Below, in pieces: positions 1-18,219 of a stretch of 37,627 bases of DNA. Each line of letters starts with the position of its first letter. The stretch's first letter is position 1. The stretch is from a virus: positions 1 through 37,627 of IMG/VR virus record IMGVR_UViG_3300025810_000022. The stretch is one strand, 5' to 3'. The translations under genes were made by a program, and so were the position numbers. A model generated the notes under the pieces. It worked only from the letters and a program-made list of their open reading frames with translations, was not told the DNA's origin and made no database searches.

Positions 1-983
1 TGATCGCCAATTTTTATATATCTTTTACCATTTATAGTCTTTACATTATTACCTTCTAAAAATTCTTGATCGTAATTTTTAGATAATGTAGATAAAGTTT
101 TTCTTTCATCATCAGATATTAAAGGATTTTCTTTATGAAAATTAGATGTAAATTGTGACCAACTTTTACCACTTACTTTATCTTTTTTAGATAATCCACC
201 ATTTCTTTCCACCCAATCATTAGCTTCTTCATTATATTTTAAAGTAATTTCATTACCTTTTTTTTGTAAAGAAATATTTGCTGAAATACCTTCTTTAGAC
301 ATATTTAAACCTGGATTAATGTCTTTAACAAATTGTCTTTCTCCATCTGAAATTGAACCTTTAAAATTAGATAAACCTTCTAATACCAATTTACCAGTAG
401 TTGCACTTAAAACTTCAGCTGCACCTACATTTTGAAAATCAAAATTTAAACCAAATTCACTAGCCAATTTTCCAGCACTTGTTCTTAACTCTCCAAAATA
501 TCCTGTCTTTAAATCTGGTTGTTGTATTAAAGTTTCAATAGTTGCAATATTAGATTGATTTTTTATAGCAGATTCTGCTGCTGAATTTATTGTTGTAAAT
601 TTTTTACCAAATGCTTTTCCAATTTCTTTTTGTTCTTCTGTTTCTCCAGCTGCCATTAATGGTGTTTTTTTAGCAGGAGAATATAAATCTGGATTAGCCC
701 TATATTCTGCTTGTGTAATAAGTTCTTGTTTACCTGTTTGTGTATTTGTAACAGCAAAGGGTTTAGATGCTTTAGGAGTCATTAATTTTTGTAGTTGTGC
801 TGTTTGAGTTACAGCAGGAAGAAGTGATTCAAAAGGATCTTTACCTTTTATACCTTGACCATAGATAGCAGAACCTAATAAAGCAGCTTGAGGTATGTTA
901 CCTAATAGTCCACCACCTTGATTATTTGGTGTATTTAATAAACCTTGTAATTGCTCATATCTTTTTCTTAAATTGTCTATCAT
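1..983 (-). CDS. Virion-associated protein, copy A (3' end cut by window edge)
   Basis: This reading frame starts at the ATG at 983-981 and runs off the left edge without a stop, giving about 327 codons. It is almost identical to the complete 332-aa protein at 36606-37604, lacking only that protein's last few residues. The protein is hydrophilic, has a Gly/Leu-rich N-terminus (residues about 20-50) and a long helical middle, and has no enzyme motif I recognise. Its start overlaps the stop of the 357-aa gene upstream (TAATG), so the two are probably translationally coupled. By position, after the tail genes and beside a 777-aa protein, it is probably an internal or ejected virion protein. That role is inference. 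Confidence 0.8.
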   Translation of the reverse strand, partial: MIDNLRKRYEQLQGLLNTPNNQGGGLLGNIPQAALLGSAIYGQGIKGKDPFESLLPAVTQTAQLQKLMTPKASKPFAVTNTQTGKQELITQAEYRANPDLYSPAKKTPLMAAGETEEQKEIGKAFGKKFTTINSAAESAIKNQSNIATIETLIQQPDLKTGYFGELRTSAGKLASEFGLNFDFQNVGAAEVLSATTGKLVLEGLSNFKGSISDGERQFVKDINPGLNMSKEGISANISLQKKGNEITLKYNEEANDWVERNGGLSKKDKVSGKSWSQFTSNFHKENPLISDDERKTLSTLSKNYDQEFLEGNNVKTINGKRYIKIGD

Positions 984-1006
984 TATATTAATCCTCTTTT
1001 TTTCAA
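1..1006. repeat. Left copy of a ~1 kb terminal direct repeat (partner 36622-37627)
   Basis: Window bases 1-1006 align without gaps to 36622-37627 with a constant offset of 36621. The first 122 bases are identical; after that there are scattered single-base differences, mostly at third codon positions (for example 123, 135, 141, 144 and 156). The repeat covers the copy A/copy B gene and the last eight codons of the gene upstream. This fits either end redundancy of one circular genome sampled from two variants or a true tandem duplication. Confidence 0.9.
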
Positions 1007-2056
1007 ATAGTCTATGTTGAAAGGGTTGGCTGCCATATTTGTACTACTTAATAAGCCATATGGCTGTGCTGAGTAGCCAAACTGTTGACTTGTGGGTGTT
1101 ATACCCAATATACTATTAACATTAGTTTTAGCATTATTATAGTCTGTTTGCAATTCAGAACTTAGTGGTGAACCTTGAGTCATATTCATATTATTAAAAT
1201 ATTCTTGAGCTACAGAATCAGGTCTAGTTAAATCTGGTCTTACAATATAAGGTGCATCTGGAGCTACTCTATTCATTAAATCTCTATCAGAATCACCTGT
1301 ATTAAAATTGCTTGGTGGATTATATGAATCTCTACCTTGACCATATCCTAATGCAGAATTACCTAATACACCTCTTTGACCAGCTTCGTTAAATCCCATA
1401 AAGTTTTTTCTAGTAGAATAATCTCCTATACTTTTACCACCTGCCATTAAAAATCTTGCAGTCAGAGGTATATAATTTGGTAGATTTCTAAAGTTTTCTG
1501 CAAATGTTGCATCAGCTGGGTTATCAATTATATCTCCAGTTTCAGGATCAACAACTTTGTTACCCATTATATCTTCACCAGTATTGGGATCTTTAGCAAT
1601 AATACCTGTACTATACATTTGACCTTTGGTCATAGTTTTACCATTAACATTAGCTAATGGTTCACCATATTCAGTATAACCTTTTTCTATTTCTTCAGGT
1701 GTAAAAGCACCAGATACAAATTTTTGTTCTCCTCTAGTGTCAGTAACTATACGACCATTTTCTACAGAGCCTACAGTAGATGTATCAGCACCTAATCTAG
1801 CTTCCGCTAATTTAGGATCTACTTGACCTTCTCCATATCCGATTGTTGTAGTGACTATATTTCCTTGAGAGTCAGCATAATCAATTTCATTATTACCTCT
1901 AATTTCATCATTACCTCTACTAAAAGAAGTATTTGAAACTCTAGTATCTGCTGCTGTGCTTATGCCTTTTTCACTAGATAAAGCAGCTTCCATTCCTGAT
2001 ACTTGCATATCATTTCCGCCACCTCCACCTGAATCTGAACCTGATCTTGAACCCAT
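983..2056 (-). CDS. Probable virion structural protein, 357 aa
   Basis: The protein has no domain I recognise. It opens with a Ser/Gly-rich segment (a run of five glycines near residue 11), is hydrophilic and Asn/Gly/Asp-rich throughout, and lacks signal peptide and membrane segments. It lies between a small membrane peptide (2066-2176) and the copy A virion protein, with a TAATG overlap to the latter. A second version of this gene appears to exist, because the last eight codons at 37604-37627 encode a close relative of its C-terminus (LRRLGLI against LKKRGLI). A structural or internal virion role is inferred from position only. Confidence 0.75.
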   Translation of the reverse strand: MGSRSGSDSGGGGGNDMQVSGMEAALSSEKGISTAADTRVSNTSFSRGNDEIRGNNEIDYADSQGNIVTTTIGYGEGQVDPKLAEARLGADTSTVGSVENGRIVTDTRGEQKFVSGAFTPEEIEKGYTEYGEPLANVNGKTMTKGQMYSTGIIAKDPNTGEDIMGNKVVDPETGDIIDNPADATFAENFRNLPNYIPLTARFLMAGGKSIGDYSTRKNFMGFNEAGQRGVLGNSALGYGQGRDSYNPPSNFNTGDSDRDLMNRVAPDAPYIVRPDLTRPDSVAQEYFNNMNMTQGSPLSSELQTDYNNAKTNVNSILGITPTSQQFGYSAQPYGLLSSTNMAANPFNIDYLKKRGLI

Positions 2057-2065
2057 GTAATATCC

Positions 2066-2176
2066 TTACAAGATTATTGAAATTACGAATAGTACACCAA
2101 GAATAATAATATATTTAGATGTATTATTATCTATGTCTGTCTTAACATCGTAAATTATTTTTTTTATTTTATCCAT
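2066..2176 (-). CDS. Small single-span membrane protein, 36 aa
   Basis: This short frame starts at ATG 2176-2174, overlapping the stop of the 232-aa gene upstream (TAATG). The N-terminal half is charged (MDKIKKIIYDVKTD), and residues about 22-36 form a continuous hydrophobic stretch ending at the stop. It fills the otherwise empty space between two virion genes in the right strand and register for the operon. Function unknown; a small tail-anchored membrane peptide is what the sequence shows. Confidence 0.5.
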   Translation of the reverse strand: MDKIKKIIYDVKTDIDNNTSKYIIILGVLFVISIIL

Positions 2177-2874
2177 TATAATAGTCCTCCTAATAAACCA
2201 CCAATTCCACCGATAACCGCACCTGGAGCTCCGCCAAATTGTCCACCAACTAAAGCACCTCCTAACGCAGTTGAAAATGGATTAGATTGAGTTTGTTGTT
2301 GTGCAGTTGTTACTGGAAAACCAGATGCAATAGGTGTAGCAAAACTTGCATATTGTCTTAATGCTTGAGATGGAGCTAATTGTGCTTGTCTTTGAATATC
2401 TTCTAATTGTAAACCAGTCTGTAATACTGAAGGAGCTCTTGATGCAATACCTAGTTGTCTGCCTCTTTCAGTTTCGTACTGACCAAAAGCTAAAGGTAAA
2501 GCAGCTTGTGCTACTTGTGAAACTATTTGTTGTTGCGACATGGGAGAACCTGGTGTTCTTCCTGCTGCACTAAATTGTGATTGGACTCCTGTTGCTATAT
2601 CAGCAGCAGATTTTTGAATCATTGGAGCTAAAAAAGGATTTAAATATTGACCAGATAAAGTATCTGCTAATTGTTGTTGTGATGCAGTACCTAATGCTTC
2701 TTGTTGAGCAAGACCTGTTAATGTTTGTTGAGTAGGTGCTACATAACCTGCTGCACCTGCACCTTGACCATAAATAGTTCCAGCTTCAGATAAAATTTGA
2801 GCTAATGCTGGTTCAGCTGGTGCATAAGGTGTAACCTGTTGTTGTGTAGTGTTTCCTCCTCCGCCTGATGACAT
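2176..2874 (-). CDS. Probable internal virion / DNA-ejection-type protein, 232 aa
   Basis: The protein begins MSSGGGG and is dominated by Gln, Ala, Gly and Thr, with many short Gln runs and helix-forming Ala/Gln segments. The last 30 residues are a glycine-zipper-like stretch (repeated GG separated by small hydrophobics, ending GGLLGGLL) able to enter a membrane. Such composition is common in short-tailed phage proteins placed inside the capsid and ejected with the DNA, but no family is recognised with certainty. It sits four bases downstream of the GNAT-like gene. Confidence 0.7.
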   Translation of the reverse strand: MSSGGGGNTTQQQVTPYAPAEPALAQILSEAGTIYGQGAGAAGYVAPTQQTLTGLAQQEALGTASQQQLADTLSGQYLNPFLAPMIQKSAADIATGVQSQFSAAGRTPGSPMSQQQIVSQVAQAALPLAFGQYETERGRQLGIASRAPSVLQTGLQLEDIQRQAQLAPSQALRQYASFATPIASGFPVTTAQQQTQSNPFSTALGGALVGGQFGGAPGAVIGGIGGLLGGLL

Positions 2875-2877
2875 AAT

Positions 2878-3315
2878 TTATTTCTCCTGTTTTATTTCTT
2901 TTTCTAAAACTACATGGGTTCTTTTGTAGTCAAAGATTTTTAAAACTTTTTGCCAACCTGGTCTAGCAATTAGTTCCATCATTTCGCAACCTTCTTCTTT
3001 AGCAAAATTTTCTATCTTACTAATTAAGTGTTGCCACTTGTGTCTTTGTCTGCCAGTCATAATATAGATATGACAAACTTTACCAAATTTTCTTTTTATC
3101 AACTCAGTTACTACAACACCAAAGTATTTATTTGTTGTAATCTTTTGTTCTTTATCCCACAATACCCAAACTTGAAATTTACCTTGTTTGGCAAGATCAT
3201 AAACAAAATCTGAATCGGTAAGTTGACTTGAATAAGCTAGAGCAGATTTAATATCTTTTTCTACCATACCCCAAACTTTATCAAGTTCTTCAATTGGTAT
3301 TCGTACTACTTCCAT
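2878..3315 (-). CDS. GNAT-like acetyltransferase-fold protein, 145 aa
   Basis: Length and layout resemble small GNAT domains. There is an N-terminal helical region, a central strand pair (residues about 45-75, VWVLWDKE then YFGVVVTEL), a strand with HIYIMTGRQRHKWQHLISKIENF at about 82-104 matching the acetyl-CoA-binding turn and following helix, and a C-terminal EGCEMMELIARPGW strand plus KIFDYKRTHVVLEK ending. Similar proteins occur among virion genes of many marine podoviruses; whether they are catalytic is not known. The classical R/Q-x-x-G-x-G/A loop is only loosely kept (TGRQRHKW). Confidence 0.6.
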   Translation of the reverse strand: MEVVRIPIEELDKVWGMVEKDIKSALAYSSQLTDSDFVYDLAKQGKFQVWVLWDKEQKITTNKYFGVVVTELIKRKFGKVCHIYIMTGRQRHKWQHLISKIENFAKEEGCEMMELIARPGWQKVLKIFDYKRTHVVLEKEIKQEK

Positions 3316-3350
3316 AAATACATTAAAAAATACTTAATAACAATATATTA

Positions 3351-3692
3351 TTACGCACTCTTTTCGTCAAATATTTCTACATAGCTAACAATACCTGCTA
3401 TGTTATTAGCAGAGGCAGCTTTTACTTTTAAAGCATCTCCAGATTCTAAAACCATAGTACCTTTGACAAGATTATCTACTGTTTTAGATGATAAATTTAT
3501 ATGTGCTACTTCATGTTCTGCGTTAGATGCTGAACTATCTGTAGTAAAGGCTTCAACCTCAACTGCACCAGAATGAATATTAGTTATTTGAATAGATTTT
3601 ACTAAAGCTGTTCTGTCAGTTGGACAGGTATATACAGTTGTCTTATCTGTAGTTGTTAGATCAAACATAGCATTTTTATATATATTAGCCAT
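3351..3692 (-). CDS. Small beta-rich tail-associated protein, 113 aa (paralogue of 7735-8064)
   Basis: A beta-rich protein with no cysteine pattern or membrane segment. It shares its layout with the 109-aa protein at 7735-8064: an N-terminal strand with T-x-V, a N-x-x-SG-x-V-x-V strand, a Leu-rich middle, then K-x-V/M-V-L-x-SGD-x-L-x-V/A-x-(S/A), and a final S-x-V/E strand. Probably an accessory of the tail fibres or a small adhesin-like domain; this is inferred from position at the distal end of the fibre block. It overlaps the stop of 3685-4008 by eight bases. Confidence 0.65.
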   Translation of the reverse strand: MANIYKNAMFDLTTTDKTTVYTCPTDRTALVKSIQITNIHSGAVEVEAFTTDSSASNAEHEVAHINLSSKTVDNLVKGTMVLESGDALKVKAASANNIAGIVSYVEIFDEKSA

Positions 3693-4008
3693 TCTTAGGA
3701 TGCTTTACTTTAACTGCTTTTATAGCTTCATAGAACTCAAAGTATTGAGATTTTAATGCTGGGTTTTGATCTATAGAGTGCCATAGCATATCTAGCTGAT
3801 CTCCAATGCTAGGATAAACTCTATCTCTTTGATATTGGTTAGCATCATACTCTGCTTGTACCTCTACCATTTTAGCTTCTATGTCAGCTACTGGTATAGG
3901 TGTTGTTCCATTTTCCCAAGTAATTGTATTTATATTATCATCTGCAACAGATACTTGAGCATTAGGATTTATTTTAAGTATTGCATTTATTATAATTTCA
4001 TTTGTCAT
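3685..4008 (-). CDS. Tail-fibre-linked accessory protein, 107 aa (paralogue of 5814-6143)
   Basis: The N-terminal half has a W-x-N-x-x-x-P-I-P motif followed by an Ala/Glu helix, and the C-terminal half has Y-P-S-I-G-D-Q-L-D-M-L-W (residues about 68-79) and ends with KxKHPK. The same order (W..., then R...Y-x-D/S-I-G-D/E-Q-L-D, then I-K-x-x-x-P-K) is seen in the 109-aa protein at 5814-6143. Proteins of this type usually follow tail-fibre genes in marine phages and may help fibre assembly; that role is inference. Confidence 0.65.
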   Translation of the reverse strand: MTNEIIINAILKINPNAQVSVADDNINTITWENGTTPIPVADIEAKMVEVQAEYDANQYQRDRVYPSIGDQLDMLWHSIDQNPALKSQYFEFYEAIKAVKVKHPKNG

Positions 4009-4011
4009 AAT

Positions 4012-4500
4012 TTATCCTGATATTTCAAAAGCTGTAATTGTTCCTTGATTATTGTTATCAATACCATTTAGATAAGCAGTTCCAGAACCAACAGCTCTAA
4101 AATAAACTTGATATGTTAATTGTGATGTTGATGATGGACTATCAAGATATTGCATAGTGTGAGGAACATTTATTAAAGCACTAACTTTAGACCAAACTGT
4201 TCCCATTCCTAAATTAGAATTTCCTAAATTGGTAGAATCTCTAAATATTGTTGCTGTAGTATAACTTTCGTTATTGTTATTTCTAATACATGTACTTGCC
4301 ATAACAAAAACTTTATTTGAAGTTGAACTTGGAGTTATATTTACAGTTAATCCATTACTAGCTGTAACAAAAGAAGTTGAAGTTGTTGTTACTCTACTAC
4401 TTGTATTTGCAGTAACTATTTGCAAAACCTTACCACCTACACCAGCTGGTAAAGCAGTTATCGCTGAGATGGTATTATTATTAGGCTTGATTATAGACAT
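4012..4500 (-). CDS. Putative tail fibre / receptor-binding protein, 162 aa
   Basis: The N-terminus MSIIKPNNNTISAIT followed by LPAGVGGKVLQ resembles a short virion-attachment segment, and the rest is Ser/Thr/Asn-rich beta sequence with alternating hydrophobics, typical of small fibre-tip domains. No enzymatic motif is visible. Its start is preceded by GATGAGGAGATTCTGAG, with a GAGGAG ribosome site. Directly upstream lies a truncated copy of its first 13 codons (4491-4577), evidence of recombination at this spot. Confidence 0.65.
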   Translation of the reverse strand: MSIIKPNNNTISAITALPAGVGGKVLQIVTANTSSRVTTTSTSFVTASNGLTVNITPSSTSNKVFVMASTCIRNNNNESYTTATIFRDSTNLGNSNLGMGTVWSKVSALINVPHTMQYLDSPSSTSQLTYQVYFRAVGSGTAYLNGIDNNNQGTITAFEISG

Positions 4501-4577
4501 CTCAGAATCTCCTCATCTTTGTTAAACTTGTTTAACGAAGCAGATATTGTATTATTGTTTGGTTTAATTATTGCCAT
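4491..4577 (-). pseudogene. Truncated relic of a tail-protein N-terminus
   Basis: A 28-codon frame starts at ATG 4577-4575, overlapping the stop of the S74 fibre gene. Its first 13 residues, MAIIKPNNNTISA, match the next gene's MSIIKPNNNTISA except for one residue. After codon 14 the similarity ends and the frame runs through the ribosome site of the intact gene to a stop. The copies differ at several silent positions, so the duplication is not recent. It looks like the stub of an exchanged tail gene. Confidence 0.6.
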
Positions 4578-5803
4578 TATGCGTTCTCCAATGCTGTTAC
4601 TTTAGCTTCAAGTGTTTCAATTCTTTCCATAGCTTCTTGTAATGCTTTAACTGATTTCATGTATAAAACAGAATATTTAACTTCTTTATAACTTTCTTCT
4701 TTTATATCTCCGATATTTTTACCTTCTGGCAAAACATCATTTTCAGTATAAAGTACATCTGGTTTATCTTTAACAAGACCATTCATACCAGATGCTTCTA
4801 AGTCTTGTGCTATAACTCCAAGAAGTTGTTTGTCTGGAGAAATTTTAAGATTATAATTTTTTATTTTTAATTTTTTAATATCATTCCATTGAGAATTAGC
4901 ATCAGTTTCATTTTCTTTAAATTTTCTATCTGATAAAGAACCATAGCTATTAAAAGTATTAAAAACATCTCCATCAGCTTCAATTAAAAAATGTCTTGTT
5001 TCTGTTCCAGCATGGTCTGAATTTATAGCAAAAACATCAAATGTGCTTGTGCTTCTTTGATCATAAAATGTAACTAATGGACTTCCTGTATTTCCTTTTA
5101 CATATAATGTATTATTACCTAATGATGTTTCGCCAATACCAACTTGACCAGTACTAAAAATACGCATACGTTCTGTATCATTAGTAGCAAAAACCATATC
5201 AGAATTTTCAAAATTCCAAAGTTCAACTCTTGGTGTGCTATCAATTCTTGCAACAAAACCATCACCAGTACCAGAGCCAGTTGCTGTTGATGATAATTTC
5301 ATTACTGGATAAGTTGAATGAATATGTAATCCACCATAAGCAGTTGGAGGTGTTGGAGAAATTCCTATCCCAACATTCTCACTACTATCAATAGTTATAG
5401 CTGTTGCGTCTGCACTTGATGTAATACCAGCCACTCCACCTACACCACTTGCAAGTTTCGCAGAAGTTATTGCACCATCTGCAACTTTAGCAGTTGTAAC
5501 TGTAGCATCACTAGGTACACCAAGATCAAGAACATCACCAAGTATCTGAATAAAATCTATAACATCTCCTGTAGCAAGGTTGCTAGCAAAAGTAATTGTA
5601 GAACCACTAACAGTAAAAGATGGATTAGCTCCACCAGGTTTTTGGATTGTACCATTTAAAGATACAATCATGTGATTTGAACTCTGTGGAATTACATTAA
5701 CTGATCCTACTTGCATAGTGTATGCAGCTTGACCATTAACTACAGATATTGCATCACAAATCTGAAAGTTTCCTACTGTGGGTTTACGACCTATATAACT
5801 CAA
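4577..5803 (-). CDS. Tail fibre with C-terminal S74 chaperone domain
   Basis: The N-terminal ~110 residues (Y-x-x-x-x-G-S-V... V-S-L-N-G-T-I-Q-K-P-G, then S-G-S-T-I-T-F, then G-D-V-I-D-F) form an attachment domain also seen in the 292-aa fibre at 6845-7723. The middle is Ser/Thr/Gly-rich beta sequence. From about residue 285, YGSLSDRKFKEN followed by I-K-K-L-K-I-K-N-Y and L-G-V-I-A-Q-D-L-E marks a Peptidase_S74 intramolecular chaperone, which trimerises fibres and is released by self-cleavage; the conserved Ser (in GSLSD) and the downstream Asp/Lys are present. It ends in a coiled coil (ALQEAMERIETLEAKVTALE). The start is TTG at 5803, chosen for the strong AAGGAG seven bases upstream. Confidence 0.9.
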   Translation of the reverse strand: MSYIGRKPTVGNFQICDAISVVNGQAAYTMQVGSVNVIPQSSNHMIVSLNGTIQKPGGANPSFTVSGSTITFASNLATGDVIDFIQILGDVLDLGVPSDATVTTAKVADGAITSAKLASGVGGVAGITSSADATAITIDSSENVGIGISPTPPTAYGGLHIHSTYPVMKLSSTATGSGTGDGFVARIDSTPRVELWNFENSDMVFATNDTERMRIFSTGQVGIGETSLGNNTLYVKGNTGSPLVTFYDQRSTSTFDVFAINSDHAGTETRHFLIEADGDVFNTFNSYGSLSDRKFKENETDANSQWNDIKKLKIKNYNLKISPDKQLLGVIAQDLEASGMNGLVKDKPDVLYTENDVLPEGKNIGDIKEESYKEVKYSVLYMKSVKALQEAMERIETLEAKVTALENA

Positions 5804-5813
5804 TTCTTACTCC

Positions 5814-6143
5814 TTAACTTTTTGGGTTATTATCTTTTATACTTTTAATTCTAGCTTTCCAAGAATTTATATCTTTATAAATTTCATCTAGCTGTTCACC
5901 AATATCGCCATAAGCTGATCTTCTTGTTGATCTAACTTGTGCATTGGCTTCTTCTTTGTTAGCTGCTGATTCTTGTGCTGATAATTGTGCGTCTGTTGGT
6001 TGTGCAATATCTAAATTCCACTCCTTAATGTAAGCACCATTGCCATCACTATCGTCTTGCAACATAACATCTTTAGTAAAATCTACATTTGAAACTCCAT
6101 TAGCTTCGCAGTATGATTTTATTTTTGTACTTAGTTGTGCCAT
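5814..6143 (-). CDS. Tail-fibre-linked accessory protein, 109 aa (paralogue of 3685-4008)
   Basis: The N-terminal half is mixed, with W-N-L-D-I-A-Q-P-T-D-A-Q-L at about 43-55. It continues into an Ala/Glu-rich helix and the motif R-S-A-Y-G-D-I-G-E-Q-L-D-E-I-Y-K-D-I (about 76-93), then WKARIKSIKDNNPK. This domain order is shared with the 107-aa protein at 3685-4008. One copy lies just upstream of the S74 fibre and one downstream of the 162-aa fibre. Fits a small fibre chaperone or connector; no function is proven. Confidence 0.65.
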   Translation of the reverse strand: MAQLSTKIKSYCEANGVSNVDFTKDVMLQDDSDGNGAYIKEWNLDIAQPTDAQLSAQESAANKEEANAQVRSTRRSAYGDIGEQLDEIYKDINSWKARIKSIKDNNPKS

Positions 6144-6161
6144 AGTTTGTCCTCCTTAATT

Positions 6162-6752
6162 TTATGTTATAATTTTTTCTCCTGAAAAACCTGCGAAATT
6201 ATTTGTTCCAAATACATTTATAACGTCACTTCCAACATTAGCATATCCACTACAATTAAAATAATCTGAAGTTCCATTAGCGTCTACTACTGCTGACATA
6301 CAAATACCTACTCTTTCAACTGTATTTGCAGTAGCAAATTTAAAACTATAAAATCTCATTAAACCACCACTAGTATTTCCATTTTTTAAAATTTCTCCTA
6401 TAAAAAGGTCTCCATTATTGTCTACTGAATCAAGTGCAAAAAAAGAATTTAATCTATATTTTCCAGCTACATTAGGTGCAAAAGAATAAGATGGTACAGA
6501 TATTCCATTTAAAGTTGCTGTACTTCCAGTATTATTGTAACAACCACCTTCGTTATATGCAAAAATACTTCCATCTGTAGTCAAATCATCAAATTGAATT
6601 TTAGTCCATGTACTATCACTTATTGTTTGAGCAGTAGAAAGAAAGGCTTGAAAACAAGGTTTATTATCTCCACCAGCACCACTTACAGTTCCTGTAAATG
6701 CAAAGTTATCTGCAAGGTTAATTGATTCTGATTGTATTTTATCTATTGCCAT
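6162..6752 (-). CDS. Fibre-tip protein with C1q-like jelly-roll pattern, 196 aa
   Basis: After a short N-terminal segment (MAIDKIQSESINL) the protein shows the pattern of a C1q/TNF-like beta sandwich: P-C-F-Q-A-F-L-S, then K-I-Q-F-D-D, a segment ending F-A-P-N-V-A-G-K-Y-R-L-N, later V-G-I-C-M-S-A, and a final F-S-G-E-K-I-I-T. The C-terminal half of 6845-7723 has the same order and a matching end (WIGYKLIT). Such domains trimerise and bind receptors in phage tail tips, so a receptor-binding role is likely. Confidence 0.65.
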   Translation of the reverse strand: MAIDKIQSESINLADNFAFTGTVSGAGGDNKPCFQAFLSTAQTISDSTWTKIQFDDLTTDGSIFAYNEGGCYNNTGSTATLNGISVPSYSFAPNVAGKYRLNSFFALDSVDNNGDLFIGEILKNGNTSGGLMRFYSFKFATANTVERVGICMSAVVDANGTSDYFNCSGYANVGSDVINVFGTNNFAGFSGEKIIT

Positions 6753-6836
6753 TTAATTATTCTCCTTAAAATTTTCTTTGCTTTGATAAATCAAAGAATG
6801 AAGTTCTTTGCATGAGTGTAACGAATGTAAAGCCAT
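6753..6836 (-). CDS. Possible 27-aa peptide between fibre genes
   Basis: The only frame that fills the 92-base gap between two fibre genes starts at ATG 6836-6834 behind TAGGATAAATT and ends in a TAA just before the next gene's ATG. The product begins MALHSLHSCKELHSL and resembles nothing I know. The DNA contains a 6-bp hairpin (CTTTGA-TAAA-TCAAAG, 6781-6796). It may be a recombination scar and not a gene. Confidence 0.25.
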   Translation of the reverse strand: MALHSLHSCKELHSLIYQSKENFKENN

Positions 6837-6844
6837 AATTTATC

Positions 6845-7723
6845 CTATGTAATTAATTTGTATCCTATCCACCAACATCTTGAAGTATTTGCTGGATTAT
6901 CTTGATTAACATTAAAAGTTCCTCCATTATTTACATCTACTCTTGCATAAACTTTAACTGTATCTCCAGCAGATAAATCTAAAACTCCAGTATGAACTAA
7001 TCCAGCTTGTGTATGTGCATTTTGTTGAGTATTGGTATAAATATTTTGTGCATCATTTATATAAAAATAAATTTCACAAGTATTTAATGACTGAGAACTA
7101 TTTGTTTCTATATGCAAAGTAACATTAAAAAAATATTTTCCATCTTCTCCACTTGGAACTGTAAAAGTGCTAGAAGCAAAAGCGTTATCAGTATCAAAAT
7201 TTTCTTGACCAAAAGTAATTTGAGTTAAAGTATTATCAGCAATATTAGATTGGTCTGTACTAGGTGTTACATAAAAAGCTGGAGTGTTATCTCCACCAAT
7301 GCCAGATACAAAGTTTGCTCTAGTCATTTTTCTTAATGCACTAGCTGATGTGTCATGGATTAATATTGTGTCATCTGTTGCGATAGAAGTTTCAGCAGTT
7401 TGACCAGTAATTATTGTAGGTGCAGTTTGTGAGTTTCCAACAGATGCGTTTGGTGGATTAACAGTTTGTAAAGCTCTGCCAAGATAAACTGCATACATGG
7501 AATCTCCAGATACTGTTGCACTTGATAGTGTCAGAGTTGTACCACTAGCTGTGTATGCTTTACCAGATCCAGGTTGTTGAACTACTCCATTGATAACTAA
7601 TCTAATTTCATTCTCATTGGTTACTGCATGAGATAAAGTATAGTTAGCTGTAGCAGAAACTGTAAATGTTTCTGTTTCAAAACTTGCGTAACTTTCTGCT
7701 GGTATATTACCAATATAAGCCAT
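6845..7723 (-). CDS. Tail fibre protein with shared attachment domain and C1q-like tip, 292 aa
   Basis: Residues 1-95 form the same attachment-domain pattern as the S74 fibre: M-A-Y-I-G, Y-T-L-S, L-V-I-N-G-V-V-Q-Q-P-G, A-S-G-T-T-L-T-L-S, then D-S-M-Y-A-V-Y-L-G. A linker (I-A-T-D-D-T-I-L-I-H-D) leads to a C-terminal C1q-like beta sandwich from about residue 145: P-A-F-Y-V, Q-I-T-F, T-V-P-S-G-E-D-G-K-Y-F-F-N-V, L-D-L-S-A-G-D-T-V-K-V-Y-A, ending W-I-G-Y-K-L-I-T. It is probably a trimeric receptor-binding fibre. The shared N-terminus suggests that this fibre and the S74 fibre dock on similar sites. Confidence 0.75.
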   Translation of the reverse strand: MAYIGNIPAESYASFETETFTVSATANYTLSHAVTNENEIRLVINGVVQQPGSGKAYTASGTTLTLSSATVSGDSMYAVYLGRALQTVNPPNASVGNSQTAPTIITGQTAETSIATDDTILIHDTSASALRKMTRANFVSGIGGDNTPAFYVTPSTDQSNIADNTLTQITFGQENFDTDNAFASSTFTVPSGEDGKYFFNVTLHIETNSSQSLNTCEIYFYINDAQNIYTNTQQNAHTQAGLVHTGVLDLSAGDTVKVYARVDVNNGGTFNVNQDNPANTSRCWWIGYKLIT

Positions 7724-7734
7724 TTATATAATCC

Positions 7735-8064
7735 TTATGTACTAATTGAATCTACTACTGATAAAATGCAGTCCACAGCACTTGCTGTATCTGATAATGC
7801 TTCAACACTATCTCCTGATTGTAGAACTACTTTTGAACCACCATCTATAAGTTCTAAAGAACCTCCAGCTGGTATTGGTGCATCTTTTATCAAATAATAG
7901 CTTGTACTTGAGTTTTTAACAGTAGCATCTACAGTTACAGCTGAACCTGATTTATTAGCAAATCTCATACCAATAATTGCGTCATCACTATTAGCTGCTG
8001 CTCTAACTTCTGTAGCAGATGTGCCTATGCTAGTTTTTAAAACTCTTTCAAAATCTTGTGCCAT
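7735..8064 (-). CDS. Small beta-rich tail-associated protein, 109 aa (paralogue of 3351-3692)
   Basis: A compact beta protein with the pattern N-K-S-G-S-A-V-T-V-D-A-T-V, then Y-Y-L-I-K-D-A-P-I-P-A-G-G-S-L-E-L, then K-V-V-L-Q-S-G-D-S-V-E-A. This arrangement recurs in short proteins near the tail fibres of marine phages and, more divergently, at 3351-3692 in this genome. It lies between the long fibre (8084-9841) and the 292-aa fibre. No enzyme motif; probably structural. Confidence 0.65.
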   Translation of the reverse strand: MAQDFERVLKTSIGTSATEVRAAANSDDAIIGMRFANKSGSAVTVDATVKNSSTSYYLIKDAPIPAGGSLELIDGGSKVVLQSGDSVEALSDTASAVDCILSVVDSIST

Positions 8065-8083
8065 TATTTTTTCCTTTTATTAA

Positions 8084-9841
8084 TTAAAGTGCAATTGCCA
8101 TAGCAACTGCAAATCCAGCTGAAGCTGCATCTATGTTTGTTAATTGACTACCATCTACAGCAGGTAATTTCGCAGAACCATCAAGTTGTACCACATTGTT
8201 TGCAGAAGTTCCAACAGTTTTTGTGGAAGCTGTTCCTAATCCTGTAATTTTAGTATTAGCAATAGAATTGACTGCTAGTGTAATTGTACCTGATGAAGTA
8301 ATTGGTGAGTTTGCTACTGTAAATTCTGAAGAACCTGAATCTGCTACTGCTACTGAAGTTACTGTTCCAACATTAGATGGAGTAATAACAGTATAAGTAA
8401 TATTAGTTGAACCTACTGATCCAGTATTATCAGTAGTACATAAAAATATTTTATTATCATTTGTTGAACCTTGATTAACTACAACCATTCCACCAGATAA
8501 TTCTGCAATACTATCATGCTCTGGATCTCTTGATGCAGCACCACTTGATACTGCTAAGTATAATCCATTTTCAGTAGCATCTGTTTGATCTTTTAATAAA
8601 ACTCTGTCACCAGCAACAAGGGTAACACCATCAATACTATCACCAGCTTCTAAACCATTTGATAAATTTACATTTGCTGTAGAAGCACATTCGGCTATCG
8701 TTCTAGTTCTTAGTCCAGCAACAGCTTGATCTACATAATTTTTAGTAGCAGCATCTGAACTAGCAGATGGAGAACCAAGTCCTGTTACAGCTCCACCAGA
8801 TATTGAAACATTGTTTGCAGCTTGTGTTGCAATTGAACCTAATCCTAAAGAAGTTCTAGCAGTAGCACCACTCTCTGTTACAAAATTTGATCCATCCCCA
8901 ACAATAAAATTACTATCAGTTGGTGTTAGTCCAGCAATGTCAGTTAATTGAGCATCGCTTGTTTGTTTTGCATCTAACTGAGTTTGAATTGCAGATGATA
9001 CTCCATCTAAATATCCTAGTTCAGTTGTTGTAACATCACTAACTTCTACTTTACCTGAACCATTTGATTGTAATGCTCTTGAAGCGGTTAAGTCAGACGA
9101 TGCTATAGTTGATGCACCACCAGTTATGGTAGCTTGTTTTGAATCTATTTGAGTTTGTACTGCACTTGTAACCCCATCTAAATAACCTAATTCAGTATCG
9201 GTTACATCTGATACTGCAATCTTTTGTGAGCCATTAGAAATAACAGCTCTGTTTGCAGTTAAAGATTCTGTATCAATTGTTGTAGCTGATCCTGTTATAG
9301 TTGCTTGTTTAGCATCTAATTGAGTTTGGATAGCACTTGATACACCATTTAAATATTGAAATTCTGTATCTGAAATTGTTCCATCTGCAATTTTAGTTGC
9401 AGAAATTCCTGTAGGTATAGAGTCATTCGTTTTTGTAAGTATTGCAAGATAAACTGATAAAGTTTCATTTGCTAATGATCCACTATCAAAAGTTACATTG
9501 ACAGTTGTGTTTGTAGAAAAAGATGAACTAGCAATTACTCCATATCTAAATGCAGCTGTAGTTGCTAAATAAATTTTTATTCTTCTACCTGCATGATATT
9601 CTGAAGTTACATCAGCACCATTAATTGTAAAAGAAGTTCCACTTACATAAGCTGCTGTGTAAGAACCTGAACCATCACCATATTCTACCCATTGTGCATC
9701 ATTGTAAAAATCTCTAGTGTTCTTCATCAATGCTCTGATTGCATTGTTTAGATTAGAAGGTAGCATTCCTTCTGCCGTAGAAATACCATTTAGTGAAGTG
9801 TTATTTGCTTGGGTTGTTGAGTAATCTTTTATACCTGCCAT
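8084..9841 (-). CDS. Main tail fibre protein with internal repeats, 585 aa
   Basis: The N-terminus (MAGIKDYSTTQANNTSLNG, then M-L-P-S-N-L-N-N-A-I-R-A-L-M) is the tail-attachment signature often seen in marine podovirus fibres. From about residue 160, 57-residue units recur, each with (E-L-G/Q)-Y-L-(D/N)-G-V-(S/T)-S-A-(I/V)-Q-T-Q-(L/I)-D-(A/S)-K-Q, typical of rod-like trimeric fibres. The C-terminal half is Ser/Thr/Gly-rich with an A-T-K-N-Y-V-D-Q motif near 370. It is the first fibre gene after the tail-tube genes, so it is likely the primary fibre on which the other tips assemble. An AGGAGATTAA ribosome site precedes the ATG. Confidence 0.8.
   Translation of the reverse strand: MAGIKDYSTTQANNTSLNGISTAEGMLPSNLNNAIRALMKNTRDFYNDAQWVEYGDGSGSYTAAYVSGTSFTINGADVTSEYHAGRRIKIYLATTAAFRYGVIASSSFSTNTTVNVTFDSGSLANETLSVYLAILTKTNDSIPTGISATKIADGTISDTEFQYLNGVSSAIQTQLDAKQATITGSATTIDTESLTANRAVISNGSQKIAVSDVTDTELGYLDGVTSAVQTQIDSKQATITGGASTIASSDLTASRALQSNGSGKVEVSDVTTTELGYLDGVSSAIQTQLDAKQTSDAQLTDIAGLTPTDSNFIVGDGSNFVTESGATARTSLGLGSIATQAANNVSISGGAVTGLGSPSASSDAATKNYVDQAVAGLRTRTIAECASTANVNLSNGLEAGDSIDGVTLVAGDRVLLKDQTDATENGLYLAVSSGAASRDPEHDSIAELSGGMVVVNQGSTNDNKIFLCTTDNTGSVGSTNITYTVITPSNVGTVTSVAVADSGSSEFTVANSPITSSGTITLAVNSIANTKITGLGTASTKTVGTSANNVVQLDGSAKLPAVDGSQLTNIDAASAGFAVAMAIAL
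8965..9367 (-). repeat. 171-bp coding repeats within the tail fibre gene
   Basis: Three copies of a segment encoding Y-L-D/N-G-V-x-S-A-x-Q-T-Q-x-D-x-K-Q occur at a spacing of 171 bases (landmark TCTAA/TCTAT sequences at about 8972, 9142 and 9314). The copies differ at many silent sites. They form the shaft repeats of the fibre and could mediate length change by recombination. Confidence 0.7.
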
Positions 9842-9991
9842 TTAATCTCCTATAAACCATGAGAAAGCCTTGTCGCTTTCTTTATTACGATCATTTATTA
9901 ATGTATTGATAGCTTCTTCAATTTGTCTTTGAAAAAACTCTTGAGTTTCAAAACTATATCTAACATTATCTATATCAGTTTTTTCCGTCAT
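9842..9991 (-). CDS. Conserved-looking 49-aa acidic protein
   Basis: The frame begins at ATG 9991-9989, overlapping the stop of the 603-aa tail protein (ATGA), and ends two bases before the tail-fibre ATG. The product (MTEKTDIDNV..., Q-R-Q-I-E-E-A-I-N-T-L-I-N at about 21-33, ending AFSWFIGD) is acidic and mostly helical. Perfect coupling on both sides supports a real gene. Unknown function, probably a tail assembly accessory by position. Confidence 0.6.
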   Translation of the reverse strand: MTEKTDIDNVRYSFETQEFFQRQIEEAINTLINDRNKESDKAFSWFIGD

Positions 9992-11799
9992 CTCAAACCT
10001 ATTCTTGAAGCAATTATATCAACACCTTGAGCATGAGTCCAAACTGATCCAGATGGTGTTATTACTTTAATTTTAAAATATCTACCAGACTGTCTTACTG
10101 GATTATCTCCACTTGTAACCATTGTTGAAGATGTAGATTCGGTAGCTGTATCAGCTAATCGTTCTTTACTTTTGATAGTTACTGTAGATGTAGCATCCAC
10201 AATCGGTCTGACATTGGTTATACTACTTCTATGTCCTGGAAACAACTCCATTTCTCTAGTTTCTATAGTACCTTCATTTTCAGTACCTGAAAATATAGCT
10301 GCTTTATAATTATTATCTATTGCACCCAAATATCTTTGTCCACCATTCCAAAAATCAGTATCTAATGCAATATTAATATTATCTAAGTTTTCAGAAATAA
10401 TATCCATTAATTCTACAGTATAAGCACCAACGAATTGTGAGAATATAGAACTAGCACTAGCATCTGCTGTACTCCATTTTTGAGTAGCATAATTATAAAT
10501 AATTACTTTATCACAAATACCAGTAGTATTAGATGTATCATTTTTAGATGGATATAACCACATAGCTAATTGATTAAAAGGATCTACCGCTGCACAAATT
10601 CTATCTGTGTATGCTTTGTTTAAATCTAAATCAAAAAATCTATTTACTTTTTCTGCACCAATAGAAACTACTTGATCTCCATTTAATTCATAAAATCCAT
10701 CATCCGCATAAAAGAAAACTCTACGATTATCTTGACAGACAGTTCTTCCATAAACAGCTCCTCTGTTTGGTGATATAACTGATAGACGGAATACTGTTGC
10801 ACCGCCAACATAGTCCATTCTAATTATTTGATTTTGTCTAAAGACATAAGCAATTTCACCAGAGGTTATATGAGTTATTTGTCCACCTGATCCTGGTAGG
10901 TCTTGCAAGTCTGATTGTTTAGTACCTGGTTGCCAAGTTGTTAAATCATTTATTCCTGACCATTGTATTCTATTTGAAAAACCAACATGATTACCTGTTA
11001 CAAAAAAATCTCTAACTACACCTGAACATTTAAAAGTTGGTACAGTACCAGATGTTGAAATAGTTGAAAGGTCTGCAAAAGAAGATGAAGTTCCCATTAA
11101 ATAAAATTGTGGTGCATCTACACCATTAGATACAACTATATAATTTCCAAATTGGGTAAAGGTAATGTAATCGGTAGCTTCTCCAGTTAAAGGAGTTCCA
11201 CCATAAAAATTTGTAGTAGTTAGTCTTGCAGTATCAGACGAAACATTTGTTAAATTATTATTTCCAACTGTGGCTCTTGTAACAGTAACAACTGCATCTG
11301 TTACTGTTGCTGAAAAATCTGCATGACCATTAATAGTATTTTTTAAATTTGTAGCAGTAGTGTCGTTGTTTGTTTGTACTTGAAATTCATTAGTAGAAGG
11401 TGTTCCAGTAACAGATGTAAAGACAACAGTTGTACCATCATTTTTTTTTAATGTAATAGTTTTACTTGCACCAATATTTGCATAGTCTGAAACTGTAATT
11501 GTACAAGTCGCAAAAGCTGTACTTAAAACTTTACCTCTTGCTCCTCTTTCTGTAAATGTTCCAGATGATAATTGATAAATAGTTTCTTCATTAGCAACAA
11601 AATTAAATACAGTATTAGAATTATCTCTAAAAGAACCTGCACCTCTACTATCTTTAGTTATGTTGTTACTTGAATAATTTACTAATGAGGGGAATCTTTT
11701 ATATGATGATGCTGCGAAATAAACATTGTTAGCTGTGTTTGCACCAGGATTATTATATTCTGGTTGGTCAGGTAGCCATTCTCCAAAAGGTATTTGCAT
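9988..11799 (-). CDS. Tail nozzle / tubular protein B-like, 603 aa
   Basis: The start MQIPFGEWLPDQPEYNNPG, followed by A-N-N-V-Y-F-A-A-S-S-Y-K-R-F-P-S-L, is the usual beginning of nozzle-type proteins that close the tail of short-tailed phages. Further on are repeated beta segments typical of a beta-propeller (G-N-Y-I-V-V-S-N-G, D-F-F-V-T-G-N-H-V-G-F-S-N-R-I-Q-W-S, N-R-G-A-V-Y-G-R-T-V) and a late K-V-I-I-Y-N-Y-A-T-Q-K-W-S blade. It follows the tail tube A gene by seven bases. The assignment rests on layout and neighbours; it might equally be described as P22 gp10-like. Confidence 0.75.
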   Translation of the reverse strand: MQIPFGEWLPDQPEYNNPGANTANNVYFAASSYKRFPSLVNYSSNNITKDSRGAGSFRDNSNTVFNFVANEETIYQLSSGTFTERGARGKVLSTAFATCTITVSDYANIGASKTITLKKNDGTTVVFTSVTGTPSTNEFQVQTNNDTTATNLKNTINGHADFSATVTDAVVTVTRATVGNNNLTNVSSDTARLTTTNFYGGTPLTGEATDYITFTQFGNYIVVSNGVDAPQFYLMGTSSSFADLSTISTSGTVPTFKCSGVVRDFFVTGNHVGFSNRIQWSGINDLTTWQPGTKQSDLQDLPGSGGQITHITSGEIAYVFRQNQIIRMDYVGGATVFRLSVISPNRGAVYGRTVCQDNRRVFFYADDGFYELNGDQVVSIGAEKVNRFFDLDLNKAYTDRICAAVDPFNQLAMWLYPSKNDTSNTTGICDKVIIYNYATQKWSTADASASSIFSQFVGAYTVELMDIISENLDNINIALDTDFWNGGQRYLGAIDNNYKAAIFSGTENEGTIETREMELFPGHRSSITNVRPIVDATSTVTIKSKERLADTATESTSSTMVTSGDNPVRQSGRYFKIKVITPSGSVWTHAQGVDIIASRIGLR

Positions 11800-11806
11800 T
11801 ATTCTC

Positions 11807-12484
11807 CTATTGGTTATTGTTTGTTACAAATTTAGATACATCATTAAATGAACCTGCAACAGTTACATCACCTCTTTGTTGTAAAGGTGCATTACCATAT
11901 TGATCTTCTCTATCGTTTCTCTCAAGTCTTTCTAAAGCAGTTGTGTACATTCCTTGCCATTGTTGAAGTCTTTGAGGATCAACACCACCTAAAAAATTAG
12001 CAGCATGATATAATGAACCATATAAATAAATTGCAGGATGACTTGCTAATATATAATTAGAAGTATTGGTATCTGATAAAGCTGCAAACTTAGCATAATA
12101 ATTTAATGTTCCTGTGTATGCAGAATCTGGAATTGGTGCAAATCTAAAATTATCACCAAGTATAGTATATGCTGAAGGCATACCAGTTGTAGATGAACCT
12201 CTAATTTGATCCATTTGAGCTGGAGTAATATATTTTAAAGCATACTTAGTTCCGCCTGATGTTATAAAAAAATCTCTTACTTGTAAAAAATCTGTAGGCA
12301 CAGATTCTGTTTCTGAATCTATTGTAATAGAAGTTGAGGTATTCATTTTTCTAATTCTTAATTTAGAATTAAAATCAGCTTCTGCTAAAACTATAAAATC
12401 TTCTGCAATCTCAGTTGTTAAATCTGATCTGTTTAACCAGTTTGCTATTGATGTTTTTAAATCTGAATATGTTGCAAGTGCCAT
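11807..12484 (-). CDS. Tail tubular protein A / head-tail adaptor-like, 225 aa
   Basis: The sequence starts M-A-L-A-T-Y-S-D-L-K-T-S-I-A-N-W-L-N-R-S-D, followed by F-I-x-L-A-E-A-D-F-N-x-K-L-R-I-R-x-M, a signature shared by adaptor proteins of SU10- and T7-type podoviruses that join the portal to the nozzle. Length fits the family (about 190-230 aa). It has a helical N-terminus, a beta middle (F-R-F-A-P-I-P) and a C-terminal helix with Y-H-A-A-N-F-L-G. The gene starts at the stop of the 110-aa gene (TAATG type), in head-to-tail order. Confidence 0.75.
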   Translation of the reverse strand: MALATYSDLKTSIANWLNRSDLTTEIAEDFIVLAEADFNSKLRIRKMNTSTSITIDSETESVPTDFLQVRDFFITSGGTKYALKYITPAQMDQIRGSSTTGMPSAYTILGDNFRFAPIPDSAYTGTLNYYAKFAALSDTNTSNYILASHPAIYLYGSLYHAANFLGGVDPQRLQQWQGMYTTALERLERNDREDQYGNAPLQQRGDVTVAGSFNDVSKFVTNNNQ

Positions 12485-12816
12485 TATATTTTACCTTCTG
12501 CTGTTTTAAAATATTTAAACTCATTACTATTTAATTTTGTTTTTAATATTTTTGTTTGAACTTCTTTAGGAAGTGCGAACCAATTACTATCTCCATTATA
12601 CTCATTCGCCCAAACAGATAAAGCTAAAGTTGGAATAGAAGCTACTCTTTTTAAATCTCTGGATTTAGAATATCCATCATTTAAATTAAATAATCTTTTA
12701 TTATGTTGTAAATGAGGATCTATATTTACTTCTTCATTTAAAACAATTTTCTTTTCCATTTCGTCTATAGAAAATGTTTCTTTTTTTAAACCATCAATAC
12801 TTATATCTTTTCTCAT
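12484..12816 (-). CDS. Conserved-looking 110-aa protein between head and tail genes
   Basis: A hydrophilic protein with a Lys/Glu-rich first half, a segment D-G-Y-S-K-S-R-D-L-K-R-V-A-S-I-P near 48-63 and a C-terminal half W-A-N-E-Y-N-G-D-S-N-W-F, then L-P-K-E-V-Q-T-K-I-L. It has no recognised domain. Its stop overlaps the adaptor start and its own ATG overlaps the stop of the 44-aa gene, so it is in a coupled run. A head-completion role is possible, but this is position-based inference. Confidence 0.7.
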   Translation of the reverse strand: MRKDISIDGLKKETFSIDEMEKKIVLNEEVNIDPHLQHNKRLFNLNDGYSKSRDLKRVASIPTLALSVWANEYNGDSNWFALPKEVQTKILKTKLNSNEFKYFKTAEGKI

Positions 12817-12947
12817 CTACCTTGACCTTTGTATCTTGTTTGCTTTTTTTGTCTGCTCTCTGATTTGTTTTGAGATTTTTTATGACAACCAGGTCTTTTT
12901 TTAGGTTGATCTCTTGGAACAAAGTGAACAAACTTTTGTCTAGCCAC
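12813..12947 (-). CDS. Small basic protein, 44 aa, GTG start
   Basis: The frame starts at GTG 12947-12945, inside the stop of the preceding gene (TAGTG), and ends in TGA overlapping the next ATG. The product (MARQKFVHFVPRDQPKKRPG, then H-K-K-S-Q-N-K-S) is strongly basic. Short proteins beginning RQKFVHFVPR occur in the head region of several marine phages as I recall them. Function unknown; DNA or capsid binding would fit the charge. Confidence 0.6.
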   Translation of the reverse strand: MARQKFVHFVPRDQPKKRPGCHKKSQNKSESRQKKQTRYKGQGR

Positions 12948-13231
12948 TAAGCACTCATTTCAGTAATAGAAACTTCAGCAGTACCAATAAAAGCTACTTT
13001 CTCACCAGGTGAAACTTTAAAAATTTCAGGTTGGTCAGCAGGTATAAAAATAGTTGATGAATTAGCAGTTGCAACAGCAGTTGGGTTTGCACCGAATAAA
13101 ATATAAATATCAGCAGTTGATGCTATTCTTACATATTCAGTTTGTGATCCAAATGCAGCAGATTGTGCTGATGTTCCACCACTTGTTTTACCTTGATGTG
13201 TAGTAGGTCTTAATCCGTAATTAAAACTCAT
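12947..13231 (-). CDS. Probable head decoration / stabilising protein, 94 aa
   Basis: A small Ala/Ser/Thr-rich beta protein (Y-V-R-I-A-S-T-A-D-I-Y-I-L-F-G-A-N-P near 33-50, then F-I-P-A-D-Q-P-E-I-F-K-V-S-P-G-E-K-V-A-F). This pattern is common in small phage proteins that follow the major capsid gene. No catalytic motif. It is separated from the 113-aa gene upstream by a G/C hairpin (13252-13282), suggesting its own expression level. Confidence 0.65.
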   Translation of the reverse strand: MSFNYGLRPTTHQGKTSGGTSAQSAAFGSQTEYVRIASTADIYILFGANPTAVATANSSTIFIPADQPEIFKVSPGEKVAFIGTAEVSITEMSA

Positions 13232-13251
13232 ATTTTTCTCCTAATTAATTA

Positions 13252-13282
13252 TGGGGGAAATACCGCTAGGCAAGATCCCCCA
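13252..13282 (-). promoter_or_regulatory. Intercistronic G/C hairpin downstream of the 113-aa head gene
   Basis: TGGGGGA (13252-13258) pairs with TCCCCCA (13276-13282), with a possible inner CC/GG pair. It lies between two minus-strand head genes and lacks a U-tract on the transcript, so it looks more like an mRNA-stabilising or processing stem than a full terminator. A near-twin lies at 13713-13730. Confidence 0.65.
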
Positions 13283-13299
13283 AATATTGTTATATACTA

Positions 13300-13641
13300 T
13301 TATCTTCTAATTACGAAAGTAATTTCCATTTTAGAAGTATTTGATGAACCACCATTAGTAATACATTCAATAGTACCATCTTCAGCAACAGTATTTAAAG
13401 CTGTTGGAAAAGCAGTTGCTACTTTACCAGCTGAACCTGAAGCTACATGACTTATAGCACCTCCAGTTACTGCAACACCACCTATTTCAAAAGAGATAGC
13501 TGCTGTGCCAGTTGTAGTTGCTTTGTTGTGAGTGATGATTTTTACAATTTTTCCACCATCAGGTACACAAACAAAAGTTGATGAAGCTGTTGAAACATCT
13601 GGAATTGCAGATGTTAAAAAGTAATCGTTTAATGTTCTCAT
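13300..13641 (-). CDS. Head decoration / head-fibre-like protein, 113 aa
   Basis: The N-terminus (MRTLNDYFLTSAIPDVSTAS, then F-V-C-V-P-D-G-G-K-I-V-K) and the alternating Gly/Ala/Thr beta strands that follow resemble small proteins encoded just after the capsid gene in many marine podoviruses and siphoviruses. It is flanked by two almost identical G/C hairpins, 13252-13282 and 13713-13730. The position next to the major capsid gene favours a capsid surface protein; not proven. Confidence 0.65.
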   Translation of the reverse strand: MRTLNDYFLTSAIPDVSTASSTFVCVPDGGKIVKIITHNKATTTGTAAISFEIGGVAVTGGAISHVASGSAGKVATAFPTALNTVAEDGTIECITNGGSSNTSKMEITFVIRR

Positions 13642-13712
13642 TTTTTTATCCTATTTATTTGCTTCGTTCCGTCATTGACTTCAAAGACCAAACAAAATTG
13701 TTAATTGAATGA

Positions 13713-13730
13713 TGGGGGATAATTCCCCCA
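13713..13730 (-). promoter_or_regulatory. Tight G/C hairpin just downstream of the capsid gene
   Basis: TGGGGGA (13713-13719), a TAAT loop and TCCCCCA (13724-13730) form a seven-base-pair stem starting 15 bases after the capsid stop codon on the transcribed strand. There is no U-run after it, so partial termination or protection of the capsid mRNA 3' end is more likely than full termination, since the operon continues. Confidence 0.7.
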
Positions 13731-13744
13731 CCACTTTAGATTTA

Positions 13745-14695
13745 TTATGAAGTAGTTAAATCTGTGATTAAACCACTTGCTTTTTCATTTCTTGACTCAA
13801 GAGTGTACTCAGCAACCATAAATCTCTGATCTGCGTCTGCAGTCTGAGCTGGTGTTTGTAGAGAGAAATCTCTTAAGAAAGAAACTGCCCAGTATTCCAT
13901 ATCTAGAATGTGAGCATCTTGACCGATTTTAGCAGCAGTACCATTAGCACCTCTGATAAATCTGTTTGGTGATACTTGCATAGTTCCAAAGTCAGATTCG
14001 TACACATCAATAGAAGTAATTAATCTTCTATCTTCCGCAGCATCAAATCTAGTAGAACCGCCTGTAAAGCCAGATAGTTTCTGTTTATTGAAAGCATTTA
14101 CCATAATCATGTTAGGGTTTCCGCCTTCATTGTAACAGCTAACTAAAATACCTTTTAACTGATCTTCAGTAAAAGCTCTTTGAGTTCCATCTGTTCTTAT
14201 AGCACCATTACCAGCACCAGAACCACCAGCACCTGCATCAACATTAGTTTCGTACCAAGTTGGACATCCACCTAGTTTTCTTGCAGCTGTTGCACTACCA
14301 GCAGATTTAGCAACATTAGATAAAAGAGCTGTTTCCATATCTCTTTTTAATTCTTTTGCAGCTTTAGCTACTTGGTAAGCCATCTCATTATTTCTTCCAG
14401 CAGAAGTTACAGCTTCGTTAGTTGCAGTAACTTGAATTCCTTTAGTAGAAATTTGAGTGTGGTTATTTTCTAATACAGTTGGTGACATAGTTCCATAAGA
14501 AATATCAGCACCTTCAACAGCAGCATTTGCAGCAACATCAGCTAGTGCATCTGTTTGCCATTGGTGTAAAGTATTAGTTGCTTTTGTTTTTGCAACTCCA
14601 GACATAAAAGGTGTTTCTGTTGGACTAATTGAATAAATTATGTCCGCTAGATCTTCTCTTATACCTATAGTCGTATATGTTTGGTATTTAGCCAT
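13745..14695 (-). CDS. Major capsid protein (SU10 / DUF5309 type), 316 aa
   Basis: The sequence fits the SU10-type HK97-fold capsid family: M-A-K-Y-Q-T-Y-T-T-I-G-I-R-E-D-L-A-D-I, then I-S-P-T-E-T-P-F at about 23-30, H-Q-W-Q-T-D-A-L near 45, and an E-x-x-N-x-x-Q-I-S segment followed by K-E-L-K-R-D-M-E-T-A-L-L. The C-terminal part has the P-domain/A-domain strands (I-M-V-N-A-F-N-K-Q) and ends with Y-T-L-E-S-R-N-E-K-A-S-G. The length of 316 is normal for the family. It follows the scaffold gene by 17 bases, as expected, and is followed by a strong hairpin. Confidence 0.9.
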   Translation of the reverse strand: MAKYQTYTTIGIREDLADIIYSISPTETPFMSGVAKTKATNTLHQWQTDALADVAANAAVEGADISYGTMSPTVLENNHTQISTKGIQVTATNEAVTSAGRNNEMAYQVAKAAKELKRDMETALLSNVAKSAGSATAARKLGGCPTWYETNVDAGAGGSGAGNGAIRTDGTQRAFTEDQLKGILVSCYNEGGNPNMIMVNAFNKQKLSGFTGGSTRFDAAEDRRLITSIDVYESDFGTMQVSPNRFIRGANGTAAKIGQDAHILDMEYWAVSFLRDFSLQTPAQTADADQRFMVAEYTLESRNEKASGLITDLTTS

Positions 14696-14719
14696 TTGTT
14701 TTCTCCGTTAGGTTATTGT

Positions 14720-15712
14720 TTATAGATAACGCATCAGTAAATCGGTAGCATCTTTTGCACTTCCGCTTTTCTTCAACGCATTCATCTTCTTCAACCTAGA
14801 CTGATTATTCAAATCTTCTTTAGTAGCTTTAACTCCTGATTTAACAACTGCATTTGGCTTGACTTTTTTACTTACTAAATTGGGTTTAGTCGCATTAGCT
14901 TTCATGCCATCCATTATCACATCAAAATATCTTGAATCATAAATTCTTGAAACATCATCATTTGTGAAGCCTTTAGAATTTAAATAACTCATAATATTAT
15001 TTTTAACTGTAGAACCCTTGATAGGGTCAGCAATTTCAGGATGTTTTAAATGAAGTTTTTTTTGTTCATTTTTTAATATTTCCTGAAACTGAGATTCTTG
15101 ATGTTCTCTCAGTTTTTGCTGTGCTTGTTGAATTGATTGTTTTCGTTTTTGTATCTTACGATCAACTCTAGCAGCTTCAGTTGGATCTTCATCCCAAAGA
15201 GCATCAAGCTCTTTAGAATTCATATCATTGTTAATCTCAGCATTTAAGGTAACTACTAATGAATTTAAATCATCCATCTTAGTTGAATACTGATTTTTAA
15301 GACGATCTTCTTCAGATTTTAGCTCTCTTTTTTCAATCGCTATCTCCTCAGTTTTTCGTCTGTAGTCAGCATCTTTTTGATAACCTGCTTTTAATTCTTC
15401 AAGGTCAACATCAATCTTTTCACCATTAACAATAACTTGGTGTAGATCGGTTTCTTGTTCTTCAATTGCATTTTCATCTTGTGATGCTTGTTCTTCATCT
15501 GCTACTTCCATTGTTTCCTCTGGTTGAGCAACAGGTTGTTGTTGTTCTTCGGTTTCAGTTTCCACTTTCGCTTCAACTTCTTCTTTTGGTTCAACTGGTG
15601 CAACTTCTTCTTGAGGTTTTTTGATAACACCTTTGGTGTCCATTAAACTTTCAATAGATTTTGCTGCACCTTGTACTGAAGCATTATTCAGTAAAGGGTT
15701 TGTTTCAGACAT
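14720..15712 (-). CDS. Capsid scaffold-like protein, 330 aa
   Basis: A highly charged protein between portal and capsid genes. The first third is Glu/Gln-rich and acidic, the middle (about 130-200) is a long helix or coiled coil rich in Lys, Glu and Gln, and the C-terminus is basic. This is typical of scaffolds that fill the prohead and bind the capsid by a basic tail. I chose the second ATG (15712) because GGAGG lies five bases in front of it and inside the longer frame that begins at 15724. Confidence 0.8.
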   Translation of the reverse strand: MSETNPLLNNASVQGAAKSIESLMDTKGVIKKPQEEVAPVEPKEEVEAKVETETEEQQQPVAQPEETMEVADEEQASQDENAIEEQETDLHQVIVNGEKIDVDLEELKAGYQKDADYRRKTEEIAIEKRELKSEEDRLKNQYSTKMDDLNSLVVTLNAEINNDMNSKELDALWDEDPTEAARVDRKIQKRKQSIQQAQQKLREHQESQFQEILKNEQKKLHLKHPEIADPIKGSTVKNNIMSYLNSKGFTNDDVSRIYDSRYFDVIMDGMKANATKPNLVSKKVKPNAVVKSGVKATKEDLNNQSRLKKMNALKKSGSAKDATDLLMRYL

Positions 15713-15766
15713 TAAGTCCTCCATAGTTAAGTTGTCGTTAGACTTGACTTATTTTAACCTTGATGG

Positions 15767-18218: not shown

Positions 18219-18219
18219 A

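Follow-up and report, generated by a model that had tools for sequence, protein, structure and literature searches.

The two ends of the window, by which we mean the whole 37,627-nucleotide stretch of IMG/VR record IMGVR_UViG_3300025810_000022, carry diverged copies of the same junction of virion genes, which raises the question whether one genome holds this junction twice or whether one locus was assembled twice. Sequence comparison makes it very probable that the window is a contig of a phage related to Pelagibacter phage HTVC106P, with a circular map of 36,621 bp and one copy of the gene for a 332-aa protein, and that its end runs into a strain like that of contig 3300020191_000370 (L001).

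Copy A (positions 1-1006, minus strand) is the allele of the main strain and copy B (36622-37627, minus strand) is the same locus in an L001-like sister strain. The sequence-only reading had described the two as aligning without gaps, with 122 identical bases at the left edge and mainly silent differences beyond, and all of this was reproduced: at an offset of 36621 the copies showed 77 mismatches (92.3% identity) and no gaps, the first mismatch was base 123 and the leading 122 bases were exactly identical. In the 332-aa gene 60 codons differed between the copies, 41 by silent and 19 by replacement changes (dN 0.031, dS 0.268). When the whole window was scanned with copy A, the best offset (36622) gave 929 of 1006 matches and the runner-up only 381 of 1006, and chance was therefore ruled out as the source of the likeness. 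The further claim that both copies keep the end of the 357-aa gene, the TAATG overlap and the following virion gene held in part. The TAATG overlap is kept in both (985-981 in copy A, 37606-37602 in copy B), but the 332-aa gene of copy A is cut by the window edge and lacks its last 5 codons and stop, and of the 357-aa-type gene of copy B only the last ~24 bases are present; the repeat thus falls short of two full genes and consists of a single virion gene and the gene overlap. The IMG/VR record of the window carries no end-repeat flag.

The genes concerned belong to one late operon on the minus strand. The 232-aa gene (2176-2874) lies upstream and is followed by the 357-aa late gene of the main strain (983-2056), which takes the position of HTVC106P gp43. 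The 332-aa late gene (36606-37604), composed of the copy B allele and a main-strain 3' end, takes the position of gp42 and falls between the gp43 and gp41 positions, and the 777-aa late gene (34263-36596) is the next gene downstream of it in every relative with both. The order 357-332-777, with one copy of each gene, held in every retrieved locus that has all three. HTVC106P (MN698244.1), a complete isolate genome of 36,945 bp and thus similar in length to the 36,621-bp closed circle, is collinear with the circle and keeps the gene order through the join of base 36621 to base 1. Most genes were matched in the same order, with protein identities of 89% for the terminase, 80% for the portal and 81% for the major head protein. 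The 357- and 332-aa genes occupy the places of gp43 and gp42, whereas in sequence gp43 was matched only in its C-terminal part (43%) and gp42 only at residues 13-88 (40%). Between the 777-aa protein and gp41 no match was found. The comparison with related phages that had been suggested beforehand therefore gave single copies in the predicted order, both in the relatives and in the complete isolate. A portal and a major capsid protein of the SU10 type were identified in the window by Pfam (PF23899, 7e-217; PF17236, 4e-93). The phage is a marine one related to HTVC106P, and by analogy with this relative its host may be SAR11 (Pelagibacter). The 603-aa virion protein (9988-11799) is 87.5% identical to a 488-aa HTVC106P protein only over residues 204-603, with its N-terminal part outside the match, and the 218-aa protein of the rightward gene block (25308-25964) belongs to the 2OG-Fe(II) oxygenase family (phrog_81, E 3.7e-23) and is 71% identical in HTVC106P.

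IMG/VR was searched with the 332-aa protein, and copy-A contigs were obtained from three other metagenomes, namely 3300025889_001446, 3300025769_001359 and 3300025543_000410 (L002, L003 and L004). In each of them copy A is identical to that of the window and is followed directly by the 777-aa gene, with flanks of several kb around this passage. The window was then closed into a 36,621-bp circle, base 36621 joined to base 1, and compared with these contigs. No mismatch to the closed circle was seen in L002 over 15,919 bases or in L004 over 13,692 bases, and L003 matched it across the join, with 19 differing positions only near its far end. The 400 bases centred on 36621|1 were exact in all three, whereas the copy-B join of the window occurred in none of them, and each of the four whole records L001-L004 holds one full copy (4/4). 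Independent sequences thus carry the end-to-start join of a circularly mapping genome with over-run ends; no single contig spans the whole circle, and roughly 12-23 kb rests on the window itself and on collinearity with HTVC106P. Exact joins in independent contigs, together with single copies in the relatives and HTVC106P, bear out the proposal of the sequence-only reading that the window holds a single genome of about 36.6 kb, circular or terminally redundant, whose end came from a co-existing strain.

The source of copy B was found in L001, whose 332-aa protein is 99% identical to that of copy B (332/332 residues aligned) and whose 777-aa protein is 95% identical to that of the window, i.e. 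~5% different. Between L001 and the window there was 1 mismatch in ~780 bases (36583-37367), against ~5 per 100 within the 777-aa gene, to the left of 36583. Copy B is thus from a sister strain that has a 777-aa gene of its own. Main strain and L001 have in common an exact run of 161 bases (36583-36743 in the window; 36583-36621 and then 1-122 in the main strain), which is the longest within 6 kb around the join and the only exact run of at least 99 bases within 3 kb on either side; the window therefore crosses from the main to the sister strain inside this run. A scan of the collection with a 36-mer from inside the run recovered only L001-L004, with copy A joined to the main-strain 777-aa gene three times and copy B joined to the L001 777-aa gene once. 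By sequence, then, the last 885 bases of the contig, beyond the short stretch common to both strains, carry the sister-strain allele.

The position of the left edge was also accounted for. In a de Bruijn calculation with the two strains the paths branched at base 122. At k = 123 their last common node was 36621..122 and the first copy-A-specific k-mer started at window base 1, the left edge of the contig, so that the left-edge part of the common run (1-122) has a length of k-1. The earlier suggestion that the left edge looks like an assembly-graph branch is in this way reproduced to the position. The 161-base run is the only one long enough to mislead a graph with k of 99-161. MEGAHIT with a k-list ending in 123 has been used in JGI-linked work (PMC6646334, PMC6243002); SPAdes with k up to 127, which is also named (PMC6646334), would not place the left edge at base 1. 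For the assembly of this contig we infer a k of 123. Conserved stretches between strains of 90-99% identity are known to mislead or break de Bruijn assemblers, which cannot pair upstream with downstream contigs across such a stretch (PMC11443906).

These results suggest that a circularly mapping genome was assembled once round and that the path re-entered the locus where it had started, where, in the stretch identical in the two strains, it would have taken the exit to the sister strain (copy B) instead of that to copy A. The first 1006 bases come again as the last 1006 since the contig continued beyond one full turn, and the copies differ because the path left the 161-base common stretch into the sister strain. 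The repeat calls for no biological mechanism. As for the circle, it would be due to circular permutation or to terminal redundancy, and the virion genome would not be covalently closed. Overlapping ends, a left edge k-1 bases inside a two-strain stretch and a foreign end allele are likewise features of strain-chimeric or over-run circular contigs in de Bruijn metagenome assemblies (PMC11443906), and a strain-switched contig end is ordinary for such assemblies.

Two explanations would leave both copies in one genome. A true tandem duplication of the 357/332-aa junction, which the sequence-only reading had offered as its alternative, would be permitted by the window alone, with two diverged copies both under purifying selection. 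It is contradicted by the three contigs that run from copy A straight into the 777-aa gene with one copy per record, as well as by the single copy in the relatives and in HTVC106P; it is thus excluded for this population, and we give it practically no probability. The terminal repeats within a phage genome are identical, since each is copied from the other. That the genome is linear and A and B are diverged direct terminal repeats at its physical ends is about as improbable as the duplication. Such repeats are known in other pelagiphages, for example 125 bp in Polarivirus skadi (PMC10504331), but A and B differ at 7.7% and cut a gene and an operon, the deposited ends of HTVC106P match the window at about 21.3-22.8 kb and not at the A/B locus, and the join is internal sequence in three contigs, by which diverged physical repeats are ruled out.

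Another explanation is that of a real recombinant strain, in which the main-strain 777-aa gene and an L001-like 332-aa gene were joined within the common 161-base stretch, so that the contig overlaps itself across two strains that both exist. The late module is mosaic in relatives, where the first 65-95 residues of the 332-aa gene are retained but its rest and the next gene are replaced, so recombination within this gene does occur, and the identity between L001 and another contig, L009, reaches as far as codon 22 of this gene, after which the two split. However, the main-strain 777-aa gene was seen with copy B in the window alone, and the switch lies exactly in the only run able to mislead the graph, with the left edge at the k = 123 branch. 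Because the combination occurs only in the window, an assembly chimera appears likelier, and the strain switch would be due to a de Bruijn graph assembler with k of about 123 rather than to recombination in nature; a natural recombinant is unlikely, with a chance that is small but not negligible. We hold a wider proposal to be similarly doubtful, namely that copy B with the main-strain 777-aa gene is a natural recombinant and one case of a general exchange of 332-777 modules (likely DNA-ejection proteins) among HTVC106P-like phages, in which the conserved N-terminal segment of the 332-aa protein would serve as a fixed docking part.

With the contig read as an over-run circle, the genome length is settled at 36,621 bp, one full turn, and a false gene duplication is removed. 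Copy B is redundant with copy A and is not a second gene of the genome, and users of the record should note that its last 885 bases belong to another strain. A near-repeat of this kind at contig ends escapes tools that look for exact end repeats.

As to function, no Pfam or PHROG family was found for the 332- and 777-aa proteins, and comparison with solved structures gave nothing credible, either by sequence or by fold (models with mean pLDDT of 70 and 58). In a viral fold library the models matched only uncharacterised or unnamed phage proteins. A tRNA search found none. At its N-terminus the 232-aa neighbour weakly matches phrog_4287 (DNA ejection protein, E 1.8e-6), which suggests that the 232-357-332-777 block may encode internal virion proteins; from this match and the place in the operon, the 332- and 777-aa proteins may have a role in DNA ejection, and by its position the 332-aa product is likely an internal virion (ejection) protein that would be delivered together with the DNA.

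The first 65-95 residues of the 332-aa protein (LQGLLNTPMNQGGGLLGNIPQ...) are conserved in L007-L010, L024, L025, L039 and L014, whereas the remainder of this gene and the large gene after it have been exchanged between these relatives and are unrelated or much diverged; among relatives there is thus a mosaic boundary inside this virion gene. Over 4 kb, L001 (1-3943) and L009, which come from separate metagenomes, share 98.9% identity. They show 0 mismatches along the 0.9 kb leading up to codon 22 of the 332-aa gene and carry different alleles from there on; this split is either a recombination or a second assembly chimera.
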